IMG/VR virus record: IMGVR_UViG_3300036768_000511
Coordinates: 1-43,511 of that record
DNA: 43,511 bases
Reading direction: 5' to 3' (one strand)
From: a virus
Position numbers and translations under genes: made by a program. Below the pieces are notes generated by a model that saw nothing but the letters and a program-made list of their open reading frames with translations, made no database searches and had not been told where the DNA came from. Of this stretch, positions 3,343 to 9,965 are shown in pieces; the first letter of the stretch is position 1; every line of letters starts with the position of its first letter.

Positions 3343-3532
3343 GCGTCCCGACTGGCTGAAACTGAAGGCCGATGTTATTGAGCGCATCGACGCCCTAGCA
3401 GCGATCTACGATAGGCTAGACGCGACGCCTGAGACGCGCGCAAGGATCTGGAATGAGCTGGCGCTGCCGAACCTGCGTCTTCTAGCGCAATTCTGCACGA
3501 ACATCTGGTTCACCGACGACGATGTTCATTGA
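3335..3532 (+). CDS. Small helical hypothetical protein
   Basis: This 65-residue protein starts at ATG 3335 inside the end of the previous gene and ends 11 bases into the next. It is amphipathic and predicted helical (WLKLKADVIERIDALAAIYDRLDATPET), with an acidic C-terminus. The overlapping organisation supports translation. It was not recognised. Confidence 0.65.
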   Translation: MGERPDWLKLKADVIERIDALAAIYDRLDATPETRARIWNELALPNLRLLAQFCTNIWFTDDDVH

Positions 3533-3986
3533 CTTCATTTTCGACAAAGAAATCGTAGATCTGCGTAAAGATGCTAATGAGAAAGGTGACCAAGAGATAG
3601 TCAAATTTTGCGATCTCGCACGCAAGGGCAACGACTCGGCGCAAATCTTTTGCGCTCGCGTTCTGCTTGATGCGCGAGAAAAGTCGCTGAGCGCGCCGAT
3701 CTCATTATCCGGGGACAATTGGTACATCAGAGCAATCAAAGGATTGCGTGACAGAATCTACTACGAGAGCTTAGAGCGCGCAGATCTCCGCAAGCGCTAT
3801 GGAGATGATTACTTCTATGACAAGAACGAAGATCTAAAAAATATAGTCATAGACATCTGCGATCTCGCACTCGAAGGCGACGAAAAAGCGGTCCTGGTTT
3901 TGGCTCGCAGGTTGCTCAGTCAGCAAAAAGACCATCTCGCCAAGATCGAGAGACGGTATGCGATGAACGACTTTGGTCGCCGGTAG
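3522..3986 (+). CDS. Helical-repeat paralogue 1 of 3 (unknown family)
   Basis: This 154-residue protein has no recognised family. It contains an internal duplication. Residues 26-55 (IVKFCDLARKGND then FCARVLLDAREK) and residues 109-137 (VIDICDLALEGDE then LVLARRLLSQQK) share the pattern C-D-L-A-x-x-G with A-R-x-L-L fifteen residues after the Cys. This is like a two-helix repeat of the Sel1/TPR kind, and the linker contains DNWYIRAIKGLR. It is highly similar in protein and DNA to the gene at 4597 and its N-half to the gene at 5230. Base composition is visibly more AT-rich than its neighbours. It starts within the preceding gene and lacks the leader hairpins of the other two. Confidence 0.8.
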   Translation: MFIDFIFDKEIVDLRKDANEKGDQEIVKFCDLARKGNDSAQIFCARVLLDAREKSLSAPISLSGDNWYIRAIKGLRDRIYYESLERADLRKRYGDDYFYDKNEDLKNIVIDICDLALEGDEKAVLVLARRLLSQQKDHLAKIERRYAMNDFGRR

Positions 3987-4510: not shown

Positions 4511-4596
4511 TGTGAGGCGGTGATGAACACCGCCGAAAAAACGATCGGCCGACGTTGCAACGTCGGCCGCCATTCCTTGTGGAAGGGGGCATCAAG
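4511..4596 (+). promoter_or_regulatory. Double-hairpin leader RNA of paralogue 2
   Basis: The untranslated leader holds two perfect stems. GGCGGTG/CACCGCC (4516-4522 with 4528-4534) closes an ATGAA loop. A 22-base perfect palindrome lies at 4547-4568, with arms GGCCGACGTTG and its complement. After them come GGAAGGGGG and ATG 4597. The leader at 5144-5229 has the same plan and shares GTGAGGCGGT, ACCGCCGAAA and GGCATC. It is conserved between two paralogues, which suggests a function in RNA (attenuation, protein binding or translation control). Confidence 0.55.
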
Positions 4597-5133
4597 ATGT
4601 TCATCACTTTCATTTCCGAAAATGAAATCGCAGCTCTGCGCAAAGAGGCAAAAGAGAAAGGTGATGATGATCTCGTCAAGATCTGCGATCTCGCACGCAA
4701 AGGCAACGACGCCGCGCAAATCTTTTGCGCTCACATGCTGCTCGACGCGCGAGAAAAATCGCTGAGCGAGCCGATCTCATTGTCAGAGGACAATTGGTAC
4801 ATCAGAGCAATCAAAGGATTGCGCAACAGCATCTATCTCGATGGCGTCGAGCGCACAGAGATCCGCGAAGCCTACGGCGATGACCCAGATTACTGGTATG
4901 ACGAGAACGAAGAGCTCAAAGATCTCGTCAGCGACATCTGCGATCTCGCACTCGAAGGCGACGAAAAAGCGATACTGGTTTTGGCTCGCAGGTTGCTTCG
5001 TCAGCAAAAAGACGATCTCGCCAAGATCGAGAGACAGTATTCGCTCAGATCAAGTGAGCGTGAACTGCAAAATGCAGTCGCAGTGACAGGAGCCGCGCTG
5101 AATGAGCTCGGCGCTGAGCCAAGCGACGGCTAG
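4597..5133 (+). CDS. Helical-repeat paralogue 2 of 3
   Basis: This is a 178-residue close paralogue of the gene at 3522. ATG 4597 is chosen over an upstream ATG because it aligns with the paralogue start (MFITFISENEI against MFIDFIFDKEI) and follows a purine-rich ribosome site. It carries the same two C-D-L-A...A-R-x-L-L repeats (Cys 30 and Cys 115) and the DNWYIRAIKGLR linker. It has an extra C-terminal tail of about 30 residues (SLRSSERELQN onwards). It has its own promoter and a structured leader. The function is unknown, and the high DNA identity to paralogue 1 points to recent duplication. Confidence 0.85.
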   Translation: MFITFISENEIAALRKEAKEKGDDDLVKICDLARKGNDAAQIFCAHMLLDAREKSLSEPISLSEDNWYIRAIKGLRNSIYLDGVERTEIREAYGDDPDYWYDENEELKDLVSDICDLALEGDEKAILVLARRLLRQQKDDLAKIERQYSLRSSERELQNAVAVTGAALNELGAEPSDG

Positions 5134-5229: not shown

Positions 5230-5754
5230 ATGATTCCAAACGTCATCAGCGACAAAGAGATCGAAGATCTGCGCAAAGAGGCCAAGAAGGACAATCGGCA
5301 CGAACTGGTCAAGGTCTGCGATCTCGCACTCAAAGGCAACGAGGCTGCGAACATCTTTTGCGCTCGTGTCCTGCTCGATGAGCGAGAAAGTTCGCTGAGC
5401 GAGCCGACCTCGAGAAAGGCCGCGCTTGCCGATTTCGAGAAAAAGTATGTGCTCAAATCCGCCGAGCGCGAGCAGCATGGGAATCGCATCCTCGGTCCGT
5501 TCGATGGCGACTGGTACAGCCTGATCACAACGGGGCCGATCTATTTCGGGCAGCTCGTCGCATGCACGGAGACGGACTATCACCTGCGCGACGCATCGTG
5601 GGTGGTCGAAACCGGGCGTCGAAGCGAGTACGTGAAAAACCCGCAGATCTCGCCCGAGCGCGAGTACGTCGGGCACGTCATCGTGCCGCGCGGGTCCGTG
5701 AACGGCGTCGAGTGGCATAAGGGGTACAATGACGGCCTGCTGGAAACCAAGTAA
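5230..5754 (+). CDS. Helical-repeat paralogue 3, chimeric with a different C-terminal domain
   Basis: This is a 174-residue protein. Residues 1-58 match the N-half of paralogues 1 and 2 (DKEIEDLRKEAK, VKVCDLALKGNEAANIFCAR, LSEP). The next 25 residues (LADFEKKY, LKSAERE) match the region after the second repeat of paralogue 2. The middle segment is therefore missing, as if recombination between the two internal repeats had removed it. Residues 85-174 are unrelated: a beta-rich domain (GDWYSLITTGPIYFGQLVA, YHLRDASWVV, GHVIVPRGSVNGVEW). It reminds me of the small phage DUF6948-type domain, but this is a weak recall. The function is unknown. Confidence 0.8.
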   Translation: MIPNVISDKEIEDLRKEAKKDNRHELVKVCDLALKGNEAANIFCARVLLDERESSLSEPTSRKAALADFEKKYVLKSAEREQHGNRILGPFDGDWYSLITTGPIYFGQLVACTETDYHLRDASWVVETGRRSEYVKNPQISPEREYVGHVIVPRGSVNGVEWHKGYNDGLLETK

Positions 5755-5766
5755 GTAGAACTGGAA

Positions 5767-5804
5767 GATTGGGTGGCCGGCGTAACTACGCCGGCCACCC
5801 AATC
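5767..5804. repeat. Perfect 18-bp inverted repeat
   Basis: The arms GATTGGGTGGCCGGCGTA and its exact reverse complement are separated only by AC (5785-5786). It lies 13 bases after the stop of paralogue 3 and marks the boundary to the hexamer-repeat region. As RNA it would make a very stable hairpin on either strand. No T-run follows on the plus side, so it could be a processing or bidirectional termination structure. Confidence 0.7.
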
Positions 5805-5834
5805 GCCGTCTTGTCTGGATCTCGGTCGTGTTCG

Positions 5835-5933
5835 ATGTCAGCATATAAACCGCGGCCGGAGTCGACATCGCGGTCCAATAAATGGGACTGGTCGTGGTCG
5901 CGCGCGATATCGCGGCCAACGGAGGCGAAATGA
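5835..5933 (+). CDS. Ser/Arg/Trp-alternating ORF 1
   Basis: In the Ser frame this ORF ends with SWSRAISRPTEAK and a TGA that overlaps the next ATG at 5930 (ATGA). The start is unclear: ATG 5835 gives 32 residues, and TTG 5811 or TTG 5769 would extend it. The terminal Lys before an overlapping stop recurs in the genes ending at 7170, 7460 and 7720. No known family; a translated product is inferred. Confidence 0.3.
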   Translation: MSAYKPRPESTSRSNKWDWSWSRAISRPTEAK

Positions 5934-6247
5934 GGCTGCTGGGCCCATATCTGTATAACATTCAACCATATTTTCATGCGGCGTCGCTATCGGCATCGAT
6001 GTCGTCGCCAATGCATTGGCGACATGCGGGGTCATGGTCAAGAAATGGTGCAAACCGCAGATCGATATCGTGGTCGCGATCTGGTTCGGAGTCGATATCT
6101 ACTGCGAATACAGGGTCAATGTCGAAGACGCGGTCGTGGTCGTGGGAACTATTTTATTCGCGGTCTATGTCTGGATCGCGGATGCAGAATAATGTGTTAC
6201 ATTCGCCTATTTGTCTGCGATTGAGACAACGGTCCGGGTCAAGATAG
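5930..6247 (+). CDS. Ser/Arg/Trp-alternating ORF 2
   Basis: This is a 105-residue ORF coupled to the previous one (ATGA) behind a GGAGG site. After an unrelated N-terminus (MRLLGPYLYNIQPYFHAAS) it becomes Ser-rich with alternating residues (SISWSRSGSESIS; TRSWSWELFYSRS). In an overlapping frame, ATG 6034 to TAA 6192 encodes a 52-residue protein. It has a basic N-terminus (MVKKWCKPQ) and a hydrophobic end (VVVVGTILFAVYVWIADAE), and looks at least as protein-like. Which frame is used here cannot be settled by eye. Confidence 0.35.
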   Translation: MRLLGPYLYNIQPYFHAASLSASMSSPMHWRHAGSWSRNGANRRSISWSRSGSESISTANTGSMSKTRSWSWELFYSRSMSGSRMQNNVLHSPICLRLRQRSGSR

Positions 6248-6306
6248 CAGCGGCGATTGTATACACCGCATTTGTCAACTTATGCGAAAAGAGGATGAAC
6301 TAAATA

Positions 6307-6573
6307 ATGCCGCGAGCGCGCTCACCGCGCGACGTGACTGATACGTCTGCGTCATCATCGGGATCGAGGTCGTGGGCGTTGTCGTTGGCGTTGTCGCAAT
6401 TCGGTTCGTGGTCGCGGTTGTGGTCGAATTCTGATTCAACGTCGCGGTCGTGGTCGCTCATGCAATCGATGTCAATGTCGCAGTCGCGTTCTTGGGCGCA
6501 TTCATGGTCGCGGTCGCAGTCGCGGTCGTGGTCATGGTCGCGGTCGCAGTTGGAGCCGATCTTATTGAGCTGA
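6307..6573 (+). CDS. Ser/Arg/Trp-alternating ORF 3
   Basis: This is an 88-residue ORF with a GAGGATGAA...ATAATG start context that recurs before the ORF at 7816. The N-terminus PRDVTDTSAS matches the starts of the ORFs at 7167 (RRDITYTS), 7457 (SLTDTTAS) and 7717 (RRDVTETSAS). Then follows a strict Ser-X alternation, with X mostly Arg, Trp, Leu or Met (SWSRSQSRSWSWSRSQ). It has no Cys and a positive charge. The competing Val/Ala frame is interrupted by TGA within this block, which favours the Ser frame. The function is unknown. Confidence 0.5.
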   Translation: MPRARSPRDVTDTSASSSGSRSWALSLALSQFGSWSRLWSNSDSTSRSWSLMQSMSMSQSRSWAHSWSRSQSRSWSWSRSQLEPILLS

Positions 6574-6576
6574 TCA

Positions 6577-7170
6577 ATGCCAGCTGGTCGTCCATCCGCC
6601 TATCCTCGTCTTCGTGACCTCGATCCGCTCCGGGTCGCCGAGTCCGTCATCGGCGCAGTCATGGGTCACGTCGCGTCGCTGGCATCTCGCCTCGACGCCA
6701 GCTCGACGTGTTCGATCGAAATCGGTGGCCGCCGCATCGATTCCTACGCCGAAATCGCTCGCGTCTCGACGCTCGGCCGCGATGTGCAGGCCCTCACGCA
6801 GTGGGCACAGACAGGCGAGGCGGTCGACTTGTCCGACTCCGGCATGGCCGCTGATACGCTCCTATCGGTGATTTCCGCGCTCTACACGCGCGCCGCAGAC
6901 GGCACGATCGACGCAAGTGAGTTCGAGACCGATGTGGACGCGACGCAGGATTTTGGCGTCGTGATCCTCGCCGCGCAGGCGCGCATCCGCTTGTGCCATG
7001 GCACCGACGTACCCGTGCGCGAGCTTGCGGCGCTGGCGTCGCTATCGCCGGATGCGCTGAGGCGGGGGGAGGGCGCGAAGCTGCGCCGGACCGTTGACGG
7101 GATCGCGTACGAGGACGCTCGGCGGTGGCTGTGCGGGCGGGGGATTCTTGTCGAGATGGAGGACAAGTGA
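6577..7170 (+). CDS. Conventional protein inside the repeat cluster, possible HTH at C-terminus
   Basis: This 197-residue protein has ordinary composition and codon use, in contrast to its neighbours. The N-terminal half is helical (VAESVIGAVMGHVASLASRL) with a short beta segment (CSIEIGGRRIDSYAEIARV). The C-terminal 55 residues (VRELAALASLSPDALRRGEG, GIAYEDARRWLCGRG) look like a winged or AlpA-type helix-turn-helix followed by a recognition hairpin. It starts three bases after the previous ORF, and its stop overlaps GTG 7167. A role as regulator of the cluster is possible but unproven. Confidence 0.8.
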   Translation: MPAGRPSAYPRLRDLDPLRVAESVIGAVMGHVASLASRLDASSTCSIEIGGRRIDSYAEIARVSTLGRDVQALTQWAQTGEAVDLSDSGMAADTLLSVISALYTRAADGTIDASEFETDVDATQDFGVVILAAQARIRLCHGTDVPVRELAALASLSPDALRRGEGAKLRRTVDGIAYEDARRWLCGRGILVEMEDK

Positions 7171-7460
7171 GGCGCGATATCACTTACACGTCGTGGTCGC
7201 GGTCATGGTCATTGTCTGCGTCCGGGTTGGTACATGGGTCGCGTTCGCTATCATGGTCGAACCCGTTGGTGCAGTCGGTGTCGAGATCGTTGCCTGGAGA
7301 GTTGACGGCGTCGGCATCACGGTCTTGGTCAACGTCAAGATCGTGGTCGATGTCATTGTCGAGGTCGCGGTCGTCATCGCGGTCGAGATCGCGGTTGATG
7401 TCGAGGTCGCGGGCGCTGTCGCTATCGATGATGCCGTCGCGATCAGTGGATGCCAAATGA
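7167..7460 (+). CDS. Ser/Arg/Trp-alternating ORF 4
   Basis: This is a 97-residue ORF with a GTGA overlap to the preceding gene. It opens with RRDITYTSWSRSWSLS and continues as Ser-X dipeptides (SRSWSTSRSWSMSLSRSRSS), ending VDAK and an ATGA overlap. Serine codons vary at the third base, and Arg codons (CGG, CGT, CGA, AGG, AGA) vary synonymously. The Val frame (VIVEVAVVIAVEIAVDVEV) and the reverse Asp frame are also open, so expression of this frame is an inference. Confidence 0.5.
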   Translation: MRRDITYTSWSRSWSLSASGLVHGSRSLSWSNPLVQSVSRSLPGELTASASRSWSTSRSWSMSLSRSRSSSRSRSRLMSRSRALSLSMMPSRSVDAK

Positions 7461-7720
7461 GGTCCAATCGCTCATTGACTGATACCACGGCCTCGCGGTC
7501 GCGTTCGCGGTCGCGGTCACTTTCGCGATTGGCATCACGGTCGTGGTCGCGTTCTGGATCGCGGTCTTGGGCGTGGTTGCTATTGATATCGCAGTCGTGG
7601 TCGTCATCGCGGCTTTGTTCGCGGTCACAATCGGAGTCGCGTTCTACGTCGCGGGCGTGGACGAGTGCTGCGTCGCGTTCGCGTCCTTGGTCGCGAATGA
7701 TCGCGATGGAGTACAAGTGA
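7457..7720 (+). CDS. Ser/Arg/Trp-alternating ORF 5
   Basis: This 87-residue ORF starts in an ATGA overlap. It opens with MRSNRSLTDTTASRSRSRSR, goes on to SRLASRSWSRSGSRSWAWLL and a Ser-rich stretch, and ends MEYK with a GTGA overlap. The N-terminal consensus T-D/E/Y-T-x-S followed by Ser-Arg repeats is shared with the sibling ORFs. An overlapping frame would give a long hydrophobic segment (VVVAFWIAVLGVVAIDIAV). No family was recognised. Confidence 0.5.
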   Translation: MRSNRSLTDTTASRSRSRSRSLSRLASRSWSRSGSRSWAWLLLISQSWSSSRLCSRSQSESRSTSRAWTSAASRSRPWSRMIAMEYK

Positions 7721-7806
7721 GGCGCGACGTGACAGAAACATCGGCATCGCGGTTCGATCCGGCGGTTGTCTTCGATCTCGATGTCGCGGTGGTTGCCGTC
7801 AGCTGA
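7717..7806 (+). pseudogene. Ser/Arg/Trp ORF 6, apparently frameshifted
   Basis: GTG 7717 overlaps the previous stop and encodes RRDVTETSASR, the family start. At 7751-7755 the repeat reads GGTTCG where GGTCG is usual, and the Ser frame is lost; the frame then ends at TGA 7804-7806 after 29 residues. Removing that extra T would restore a Ser-rich ORF (SIRRLSSISMSRW...) ending at TAA 7814-7816, which overlaps the next ATG exactly. It is a slippage mutant, a phase-variable gene, or a sequencing error. Confidence 0.45.
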
Positions 7807-7815
7807 GGATGAATA

Positions 7816-8040
7816 ATGCTATTTTCGCGAGCTGCGCACTATTTGACATACACATCATTGTCACACTCAGGATATAGGCCAGATTCGTCAAGGGCATGGT
7901 CGATGTCCTGTTTTTGTCGCAGTGCGAGGATTTGGTCTGGATCAACGTCACGGTCTGGATCGGAGTCGACGTCGCGGTCGCTCGTATTCTCCGGGACCGG
8001 TTCTCGTAAAACCCAATACCGCCTTCCGACATCGGAGTGA
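7816..8040 (+). CDS. Ser-rich ORF 7, last of the cluster
   Basis: This 74-residue ORF follows GAGGATGAATA with ATG 7816. Its start (RAAHYLTYTSLSHS) resembles RRDITYTSWSRS of the ORF at 7167. The middle is Ser-rich and less regular (AWSMSCFCRSARIWSGSTSR, SGSESTSRS), with two Cys. After the stop the hexamers continue without an ORF start up to the end of the amidase gene, which is transcribed towards it, so the two transcription units converge near 8060. Confidence 0.45.
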   Translation: MLFSRAAHYLTYTSLSHSGYRPDSSRAWSMSCFCRSARIWSGSTSRSGSESTSRSLVFSGTGSRKTQYRLPTSE

Positions 8041-8071
8041 GCGTCGCGTTCGCGGTCGTGCGGTCGCGGTC

Positions 8072-8746
8072 CTAGCGGCATAGGTCCCATAGCCGTGACC
8101 AGTTGAACCGCTCGCCCGGATCGAAGCTCCCGCCCGCGTTCGCCCGGCGCAACGGCGACACGTCGTAGTGCCCGAGGACGTGCTCGCGGTCGAGCGGGAT
8201 GCGCCAGCGCTTGCACACGTCAGCGAGGAGCGCCGCGAGCGCCTGGTACTGCTGCGGCTCGAACACGTCGCCGCGCGGCGGGCGCTCGAGGCTCTGCACC
8301 TCGATCCCGATGCTGCGCCGGTTCGGGCTATCGCCGCTCACAAGCTCGAGCGGCGATTGCAGCGCGACAGTGCGCCGCCATGTCTCGCGCCATAGGCGGT
8401 AGCGCGGCTGCTCGACGCCGAGGTCGACAACGCGATCGTCGGGCGACCAAACGCAGCGCGACCAGGTTTCCCACCCCTGCCGATAGGCCGCAGCCTCGGC
8501 GGCGCGCATAGCCGCATGCCGCGCGACGCGCCCCTCGTCGACGATGCGTCGGATCGATCCGGTCGCCGTGACGAGGTAGTGCGGCGCGATGCCGTCGGTG
8601 TTGCTCCCGCGCGCGTCGGTGTACCAATCGAGACAGCGGTCAAGGTCGGTCTCGCCCGTCGCGTGCACGATCACGCAGACCGGTGGTGTCTGCCGCTCGG
8701 GCAGTTCATGTCGAGTCGGCGTATCGATTACGTCGAGCGCGTCCAC
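8072..8746 (-). CDS. Endolysin, N-acetylmuramoyl-L-alanine amidase (Amidase_2/PGRP type)
   Basis: This 224-residue protein has an Amidase_2 fold. It shows VIVHATGE with the first zinc His, IAPHYLV, SIGIEVQSLE, and the C-terminal LGHYDVSP with FDPGERFNW, which hold the second His and the third zinc ligand or catalytic residues. It should cleave the amide bond between MurNAc and L-Ala in the host wall at lysis. No signal peptide is seen, so a holin or pinholin is needed. GTG 8746 lies inside the tiny membrane gene upstream (8728-8844), giving a compact lysis cassette that ends the late operon. Confidence 0.92.
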   Translation of the reverse strand: MDALDVIDTPTRHELPERQTPPVCVIVHATGETDLDRCLDWYTDARGSNTDGIAPHYLVTATGSIRRIVDEGRVARHAAMRAAEAAAYRQGWETWSRCVWSPDDRVVDLGVEQPRYRLWRETWRRTVALQSPLELVSGDSPNRRSIGIEVQSLERPPRGDVFEPQQYQALAALLADVCKRWRIPLDREHVLGHYDVSPLRRANAGGSFDPGERFNWSRLWDLCR

Positions 8747-8844
8747 GGCTCAGCGTCCCCGACCGCCAAGAGCGCGACGAGCGCCCACACGAGCGGCGCC
8801 GCGAACACGAGGGCGATTTTCGCGCGACGACAACCGAGAATCAC
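8728..8844 (-). CDS. Tiny single-span membrane protein, holin candidate
   Basis: This is a 38-residue ORF. GTG 8844 overlaps the stop of the preceding structural gene (GTGA) and its end overlaps the amidase start. It has a basic N-terminus (ILGCRRAK), one clear membrane span (IALVFAAPLVWALVALLAV) and a short polar tail (GDAEPWTRST). Its position immediately before the endolysin and its single span suggest a pinholin-like or accessory lysis role. Its size is below that of most described holins, so this stays tentative. Confidence 0.6.
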   Translation of the reverse strand: MILGCRRAKIALVFAAPLVWALVALLAVGDAEPWTRST

Positions 8845-9965
8845 GGCAGAACCTGCGATGGCTTCACGGTGACGCTCGATTCCTCGGCGCCGACGACGTT
8901 GGCTCCGGTCGTCTCAATTCGGTACCACCACACGCCGGACACCGATAGACTGATGTCGAGCGTGTACGTCCCAGTGCTCAGCCGCGACCACTGCGGATCG
9001 ACGCCATAGGTGTAGACCGTGACAACGCCGTCCGGCCTCTTCGTCCGCGCAACGAGCGTGGCTGGATCGGCGAGCGCGCCACTGGCATTTTTCACGGTCA
9101 CGTCGATTCGGGCGACATCGCCTACGTCGTACATCTCGGAACCTCCGAGGGTGATGGTAGCAAGCGGCCGCGCGAGCAGCGCAATCTCGGCGAGAGCCTG
9201 CCCATCAACGATAATCGAGGCAATCGGCTGCGCGAGCAGCTCAATCTCGGTGATAGCTCGCCCGGCAAGGAGAATCGAGGTAAGCGGCCGCGCGCCGATG
9301 ATGAGCGTGCCGGCTCGCTGAACGCCGGCAGAGGAGGCGGCGCAGGTCGCCGATCCGGCAGCGGTGGCAGTGGCAGTCGCGATCGCGGCACCCGTCGCCG
9401 CGACAATCGAGGTGCCGCTCGCGCTCGCCGTCGACGACGAGACGGAGCTCGCCGCAACGGTCGCGGTGCCCGACGCGCTCGCCGAAGCGGTCGCCGTTGC
9501 AGCGCCGGTCGCCGCTACGGTCGCAGTGCCGCTCGCGGCCGCGGCGCCGGTCGCAATCGAAGCGCCAGTCGCTGCGCCATCGCCCGCCCCCGATGCCGAG
9601 GCGCTCGCCGTCGCGGTCGACGAGCCGACGGCGCTGGCCGATGCTACGCCAGCGCAGCTTCCTGCCGCGCTCGCGGTCGCCGAGCCGGTCGCGGCGACAT
9701 TCGCGGTCCCCGATGCCGCACCGGTACCCGCCGCCTTCGCCGCGCCGGTCGCAGCGGCGCTCGAGGTGCCGGCTGACGTGCCGCTACCGGCCGCAATCGA
9801 TGAGCCGGTCGCGCTCGCCGTCGATGTGCCGGCGGCGCTCGCGTTCGAGCTCTGACTGGGAGGAAAGAAATCGTCATCGACGACGAGCGGCCACGGAGAC
9901 GCATCGTCGTCGACGAACGGAATCGGATACGGCGAGGAGAGCGGCGCGCGGTAGAGCTCCGCCAC
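8841..9965 (-). CDS. Virion protein with Ala/Ser/Thr/Gly repeat shaft and Ig-like C-terminus
   Basis: This is a 374-residue protein. Residues 1-40 are acidic and aromatic (FVDDDASPWPLVVDDDFFP). Residues 43-215 consist almost entirely of Ala, Ser, Thr, Gly and Val in dipeptide-like repeats (GTATVAATGAATATASASAS). Residues 220-280 contain five decapeptides of the type LLA-R/Q-P/A-L/I-A/T-x-I (LLAGRAITEIE, LLAQPIASII, LLARPLATIT). The last 95 residues form a beta-sandwich-like domain (VARIDVTVKNASG, GTYTLDISLSVSGVWWYRIE). It probably acts as a tail fibre or needle-like appendage. The repeat shaft is encoded by GCGACC-type hexamers, the complement of the 5.8-8.1 kb motif. Confidence 0.75.
   Translation of the reverse strand: MAELYRAPLSSPYPIPFVDDDASPWPLVVDDDFFPPSQSSNASAAGTSTASATGSSIAAGSGTSAGTSSAAATGAAKAAGTGAASGTANVAATGSATASAAGSCAGVASASAVGSSTATASASASGAGDGAATGASIATGAAAASGTATVAATGAATATASASASGTATVAASSVSSSTASASGTSIVAATGAAIATATATAAGSATCAASSAGVQRAGTLIIGARPLTSILLAGRAITEIELLAQPIASIIVDGQALAEIALLARPLATITLGGSEMYDVGDVARIDVTVKNASGALADPATLVARTKRPDGVVTVYTYGVDPQWSRLSTGTYTLDISLSVSGVWWYRIETTGANVVGAEESSVTVKPSQVLP

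Follow-up and report, generated by a model that had tools for sequence, protein, structure and literature searches.

Hfq is a bacterial relative of the Sm/LSm proteins, and a crystal structure of a putative cyanophage Sm-like protein reportedly associates this fold with phages as well. Low-complexity sequence rich in Ser, Arg, Gly and aromatic residues, with a sticker-and-spacer composition, is found in eukaryotic SR proteins and in RG and prion-like domains. A survey of low-complexity regions in prokaryotes and phages found aromatic residues and Arg to be heavily under-represented (PMC6821194). The DNA analysed here is a 43.5-kb virus record (IMGVR_UViG_3300036768_000511, positions 1–43,511; hereafter the window), which contains on the + strand, at 5811–8085, a cluster of genes for proteins in which Ser alternates with a second residue (Ser-X). 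We show that this cluster represents, in diverged and multi-copy form, a two-gene phage module, composed of a protein with a predicted Sm/LSm fold (the LSm-like partner) followed by a polymer of Ser alternating with Gly, Arg or Trp, which is widespread and apparently undescribed. Literature searches, which covered open PMC papers only, retrieved no description of such a module, and we know of no Ser-X partner for the cyanophage Sm-like protein.

The Ser frame of these arrays is coding. In the window, the alternation of Ser in the five intact open reading frames (ORFs A to E; Table 1) lies above that of 2000 residue shuffles, and 200 sequences drawn from a dinucleotide model gave a best alternation score of 12 vs 38 observed; the Ser-X proteins proposed in the initial annotation are thus real, being far outside both nulls. 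In the window, the bases of the hexamer inferred to be ancestral, TCGCGG, are retained at T.86, C.88, G.69, C.36, G.54 and G.65; conservation is thus highest at the two positions that determine Ser. Codon use in the arrays departs from that of the other phage genes: the Arg codon CGC, which accounts for 48% of the Arg codons in sampled phage genes, was absent from the Ser-X-Ser contexts counted. The initial count of the base following CG (19 G, 7 T, 3 A) was exact on recount, whereas its 19 of 20 TGG after TG was not reproduced, the recount giving 15 TGG and zero TGA, TGC or TGT directly after Ser. Much stronger evidence for coding in this frame, as originally claimed, comes from the family: of 115 arrays located irrespective of frame, 30 have a Shine-Dalgarno sequence plus ATG that opens the Ser frame, and 0–4 have such a start for each of the other frames. 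Additionally, Ser is written with TCN codons in most viruses and with AGY in 13 loci, indicating that the protein, not the DNA hexamer, is conserved, and on this basis we rejected the hexamer as the sole conserved element. The antisense frame (D/E-X) has identical wobble positions, and codon statistics by themselves leave the strand undecided; it is the start sites, together with the leaders and the family comparison, that identify the sense strand as coding and disfavour antisense D/E-X coding.

The polymer changes fast by whole dipeptide steps, with Ser retained. Each array uses nearly one codon per residue (share.96–.98), and the Arg codon tracks the G+C content of the flanks (AGG at.44, CGG at.53; p 2.8e-7). 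Arrays adjoining near-identical LSm genes differ by gaps, 36 of 43 of which are multiples of 6, in a count where pairs are not independent and where aligning period-6 DNA favours multiples of six. Near-uniform codons and six-base gaps suggest that slippage or unequal recombination probably generates the arrays, whereas selection retains Ser. In two pairs of contigs (L260 and L261, L373 and L377) the LSm-like genes are 97–99% identical and the sequence 3′ of the array is dissimilar; Ser-X arrays may be recombination hotspots.

Directly upstream of the Ser-X arrays lies the gene for a conserved protein of ~90–120 aa, of which there are two homologous types, I and II (hhalign 95%, E 3.4e-8). Searching viral contigs with the partner only, we found 365 relatives of type I and 313 of type II. 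In a reverse test, loci were picked by the LSm-like protein alone (the best 79 of 365 for type I and the best 80 of 313 for type II, near duplicates included), and a Ser-X ORF was present at or just past the partner stop in 73/79 and 72/80 loci, respectively (145/159 overall); several of those without it correspond to short arrays or contig ends. The Ser-X start overlaps the partner as ATGA (start at −1 of the partner stop) in 47 of the 73 type I cases, and 15 of the 72 type II cases are coupled to the partner, so translational coupling is common but not universal. Gly, Arg and Trp occupy the X position in similar amounts (G604 R603 W493 for type I; G656 W490 R465 for type II), while the leader of the Ser-X protein follows the partner type: MNAAILRTGFD, net charge +0.4, vs a basic MRxxKQKYRS-like leader, net +4. 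The partners share a conserved WIADTGRF motif and a short helix after strand 3, and the neighbouring genes in the family encode helicases, DNA polymerases, primase, exonuclease and ssDNA-annealing proteins, with SSB and a PD-(D/E)XK protein as their counterparts in the window. The LSm-like protein had no match in ~770 bacterial genomes or in plasmids, in a search whose positive control worked, and is unnamed by the PHROGs, Pfam, NCBIfam and PADLOC libraries. That the module consists of a coding Ser frame paired with an LSm-like gene is very likely.

The partner is predicted to adopt an Sm/LSm fold, a predicted RNA-binding fold. The AlphaFold model of the partner from contig L041 (predicted local distance difference test, pLDDT, 91.8) retrieved with Foldseek nearly only Sm/LSm structures among its top 50 PDB matches (LSM14, SmAP, Sm, LSm1-7, Edc3; best E 2.9e-3, probability 1.00). 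The model of the window protein consists of four helices at the N-terminus and the barrel seen in L041 (barrel pLDDT about 70–91), and its top matches are also Sm/LSm (6f9w, E 2.2e-3); in both models the five-stranded, strongly bent Sm barrel is present, with moderate E-values. The window gene belongs to the partner family (hidden Markov model, 7e-10; hhalign to the type I profile 97.4%, E 1.4e-11), and a genome search with the partner profile matched its C-terminal half (3.1e-10 at 5506–5715). The first Ser-X frame opens about 57 nt past its stop. Tandem paralogues at 3522–3986 and 4555–5133 share with it the N-terminal helical domain, the barrel being found in the third gene only. This partner gene lies just beyond the region covered by the initial annotation, where it was not linked to the cluster.

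A cousin system was found through the nearest viral fold match of the LSm-like partner, a DUF6948 protein (E 1.4e-4). Using a DUF6948-like query sequence confirmed by Pfam (3.8e-35), we retrieved 16 phage records from GenBank, of which several have cultured hosts; carriers of DUF6948 (PF22253) with a downstream Gly-[Ser/Tyr/Asp] ORF include Iodobacter phage phiPLPE, Pectobacterium phages Ymer and Sabo, Vibrio phage IKEMa6-1, Dickeya phage Setonix and Chlorobiaceae phage CV-1-33. An ORF with Gly alternating with Ser, Tyr or Asp (S85, Y72, D62) starts at or across the DUF6948 stop in nine of the ten regions examined, and its products are net acidic. Type I partners align with DUF6948 (hhalign 97%, E 1.2e-10) and have an N-terminal motif in common with it (MDINEITLGQAKELAQIF / MKLDDLTIGEVKELAKMF); the type II and DUF6948 profiles do not align, and the Pfam DUF6948 model matched none of 53 LSm-like members, the relation thus appearing by profile comparison only. 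In 274 genomes DUF6948 had no match, and no control matched either. In two human gut phage scaffolds (L424, L425) the ORF immediately 3′ of DUF6948 is larger and includes a short stretch of Gly-[Ser/Tyr/Asp], which suggests a Gly-X polymer fused to another protein. In both systems the X positions draw about equally on one small, one aromatic and one charged residue, namely Gly, Trp and Arg on the Ser backbone and Ser, Tyr and Asp on the Gly backbone. The respective codon words are one base from that of the aromatic residue (TGG to CGG/AGG and GGG; TAC to TCC and GAC), so that a founder word can seed the set; the retained X members are, despite this seeding, chemically parallel between the Ser-X and the Gly-X systems.

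Based on the LSm-like partner and the early, DNA-metabolism neighbourhood, we favour a mechanism in which the LSm-like protein would recruit or nucleate the Ser-X polymer, perhaps via the leader, whose type follows the LSm type. Arg and Trp, as stickers evenly mixed on Ser and Gly spacers, would then make a multivalent RNA-binding assembly or condensate that would act early in infection on a phage or host target, probably RNA; we propose this tentatively, at a little under even likelihood. In the DUF6948 system, the same design would take an acidic, tyrosine-based form. More speculatively, tailed phages might possess a general class of two-gene systems: a fast-evolving polymer with a small-residue backbone (Ser or Gly) and roughly equal shares of small, aromatic and charged residues would be organised by an LSm-like protein into RNA condensates or ribonucleoprotein assemblies, with cationic and acidic versions of one design.

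Several observations weigh against this interpretation. The Foldseek E-values are only about 2e-3, with none <=0.001 in PDB, and neither Pfam nor PDB searches gave a sequence match of the partner to solved Sm proteins, the Sm/LSm/Hfq families being unmatched; the partner is therefore Sm-like by fold only. The window itself is atypical: the barrel of its partner protein is joined to a helical domain, the leaders differ and there are more types of X residue, while its LSm-like and Ser-X genes are separated by a possible hairpin and lack the ATGA overlap, coupling occurring instead among the Ser-X genes. Additionally, the Ser-X polymers are cationic and the Gly-X polymers acidic; this lack of a conserved charge in the wider class weakens the case for RNA binding by electrostatics alone and argues against a simple cationic-peptide role.

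The main rival to a multivalent protein assembly is that the array operates as nucleic acid and the protein is secondary: (GGN4)n RNA would either offer a series of sites bound by the ring of LSm-like proteins or fold into a two-layer G-quadruplex, and would serve in autoregulation or act as a sponge. Consistent with this, the X codons are almost solely NGG (the commonest Gly codon is GGG in 102/105 arrays and the commonest Arg codon CGG or AGG in 104/105), codons are close to uniform within each array, GG every six bases recurs in AGY-type and GGC-type (Gly-X) arrays, and the adjoining gene is LSm-like. However, NGG words are one base apart, and a founder word plus slippage also accounts for them; Ser is kept with unrelated codons, the GG is eroded in the diverged arrays of the window (.54/.65) while the TC of Ser is kept (.86/.88), Shine-Dalgarno plus ATG starts enter the Ser frame, and the leaders are conserved as protein. 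We consider this nucleic acid role rather unlikely.

The initial annotation proposed cationic amphipathic Arg/Trp peptides acting on membranes, a role that would lie in lysis or superinfection exclusion. The tandem family is cationic, as was claimed (net charge +6 to +14 in the window, with Trp), strict alternation would place Ser on one face of a strand, and the cluster abuts an endolysin gene. Nevertheless, one third of the X residues in the family are Gly, near-equal to Arg and Trp, the homologous context has acidic polymers, and we saw no hydrophobic signal-like leader nor any sequence sign of export or membrane insertion; elsewhere the genes neighbouring the LSm-like pair are those of DNA metabolism, and an endolysin was found only once among the families listed. 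A membrane role is hence highly improbable, and the alternative option of RS-type binding to nucleic acids, also raised initially, comes closer. The polymer could also be a disordered tail or inhibitor carried by the LSm-like protein and aimed at a host protein, such as an RNase or a defence complex, with an arms race driving turnover; array turnover is in fact very fast among near-identical viruses, and these small coupled genes were found in this analysis in viral records only. We deem this quite improbable because PADLOC gave no defence-system match and composition is conserved, not a specific motif, which fits multivalency better.

Alternation of the form S-[R/W]-S-W, searched as a DNA pattern, occurs in at least 120 viral contigs, most matches being real Ser-X arrays, and the genomes carrying arrays span 32 to 68% G+C. 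Tandem families exist in other viruses (14 arrays in L021, 8 in L052, 7 in L108, 6 in L107 and L086, and 5 in L030), with each copy bearing a leader specific to the virus (MIKKSIYKRNIW or MRYLFEGS, for example). Carriers of the Ser-X version are uncultured. In bacterial genomes, the matches listed for the pattern were for the most part SWSW runs resembling microsatellites, frequently interrupted by stops, and no gene with a leader and an array was recognised among them; tblastn and protein scans with the low-complexity Ser-X proteins of the window found no relatives. Many contigs end within or just past an array (L025/L099 and L068/L097, at contig ends; L270, L279, L289, L396), suggesting that assemblers break there and that Ser-X genes are probably undercounted. 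The family in L086 (1784–2797) has mostly Trp, Ser and Leu as X and few Arg, indicating that Arg is not essential. A Ser-Trp array in L035 (10533–10751) has stops in the Ser frame and an antisense frame open for 398 aa; it is a different, unrelated repeat.

The window contains tailed-phage genes for terminase, portal, tape measure, endolysin and sigma factor, as well as for SSB, a PD-(D/E)XK protein and a Mu-like head protein; relatives of its terminase (G001, G002) have structural genes in common with it and lack the Ser-X cluster. The approximately seven ORFs initially described are not uniform: the cluster has five intact Ser-X ORFs and three remnants, with one ordinary ORF inside it. ATGA/GTGA couplings were confirmed at three junctions (6577–7170 to C, C to D, and D to the second remnant), and the shared start RRD-[VI]-T-x-T-S is clear in B, C and the second remnant, weak in D and E, and absent from A. 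Suggested as a homology probe, this start motif gave as a DNA pattern two chance matches in viral contigs, and a similar pattern gave none in genomes. The ordinary ORF, whose C-terminus looks helix-turn-helix-like by eye, has no match in Pfam, PHROGs or PADLOC and no viral relative. Adjoining the endolysin gene, a structural-looking protein (8841–9965, − strand) contains a long stretch of alternating Ala/Ser/Thr/Gly.

Table 1. Coordinates of the LSm-like gene, the Ser-X cluster and adjoining features in the window.
Feature	Position	Strand	Details	Basis
LSm-like partner, 174 aa	5230..5754	+	N-terminal four-helix part and C-terminal predicted Sm/LSm-like barrel (residues about 93–163)	
Perfect 18-bp inverted repeat	5768..5805		GATTGGGTGGCCGGCGTA / TACGCCGGCCACCCAATC; separates the LSm-like gene from the Ser-X cluster; may form a hairpin in the transcript, without T run	Read directly
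Ser-X remnant or TTG-start ORF	5811..5933	+	LSGSRSCSMS...PTEAK, then stop; without clear start; overlaps start of A	Translation
Ser-X protein A, 105 aa	5930..6247	+	Diverged	Ser alternation p 0.002; Shine-Dalgarno ggagg
Ser-X protein B, 88 aa	6307..6573	+		Ser alternation p<=0.0005
Ordinary ORF, 197 aa	6577..7170	+	Within Ser-X cluster	
Ser-X protein C, 97 aa	7167..7460	+	GTG start overlapping stop of 6577–7170	Ser alternation p<=0.0005; Shine-Dalgarno ggagg
Ser-X protein D, 87 aa	7457..7720	+	ATGA overlap with C	Ser alternation p<=0.0005
Ser-X remnant, frameshifted	7717..7806	+	Starts MRRDVTETSASR, then out of frame (MRRDVTETSASRFDP...); GTGA overlap with D	Translation; Shine-Dalgarno ggag
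Ser-X protein E, 74 aa	7816..8040	+	Diverged	Ser alternation p 0.001; Shine-Dalgarno gagga
Ser-X remnant	about 8041..8085	+	Without start; abuts convergent endolysin gene	Translation
Endolysin	8072..8746	−		PHROG match

If this reading is true, hundreds of environmental phages use an undescribed pair formed by a predicted RNA-binding fold and a designed-looking low-complexity polymer, and sticker-and-spacer assembly would enter phage biology as a minimal, genetically separable system, which is testable now given that the cousin version is present in cultured phages. Compared with archaeal SmAP, eukaryotic Sm/LSm, LSM14 and Edc3, which are the top Foldseek matches, the phage partner is alike in its predicted barrel fold but has no detectable sequence relation, and differs in its WIADTGRF motif, in the helix after strand 3 and in having a separate low-complexity protein. 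The Ser-X proteins are similar in composition to SR, RG and prion-like domains, although they are strictly alternating, share no ancestry with them and consist entirely of leader plus polymer. The DUF6948 system resembles the LSm/Ser-X module in its homologous partner, gene order, overlapping start, dipeptide polymer, three X residues and near-uniform codons, whereas it differs in its Gly backbone, in having Ser, Tyr and Asp as X and in its net acidic charge.

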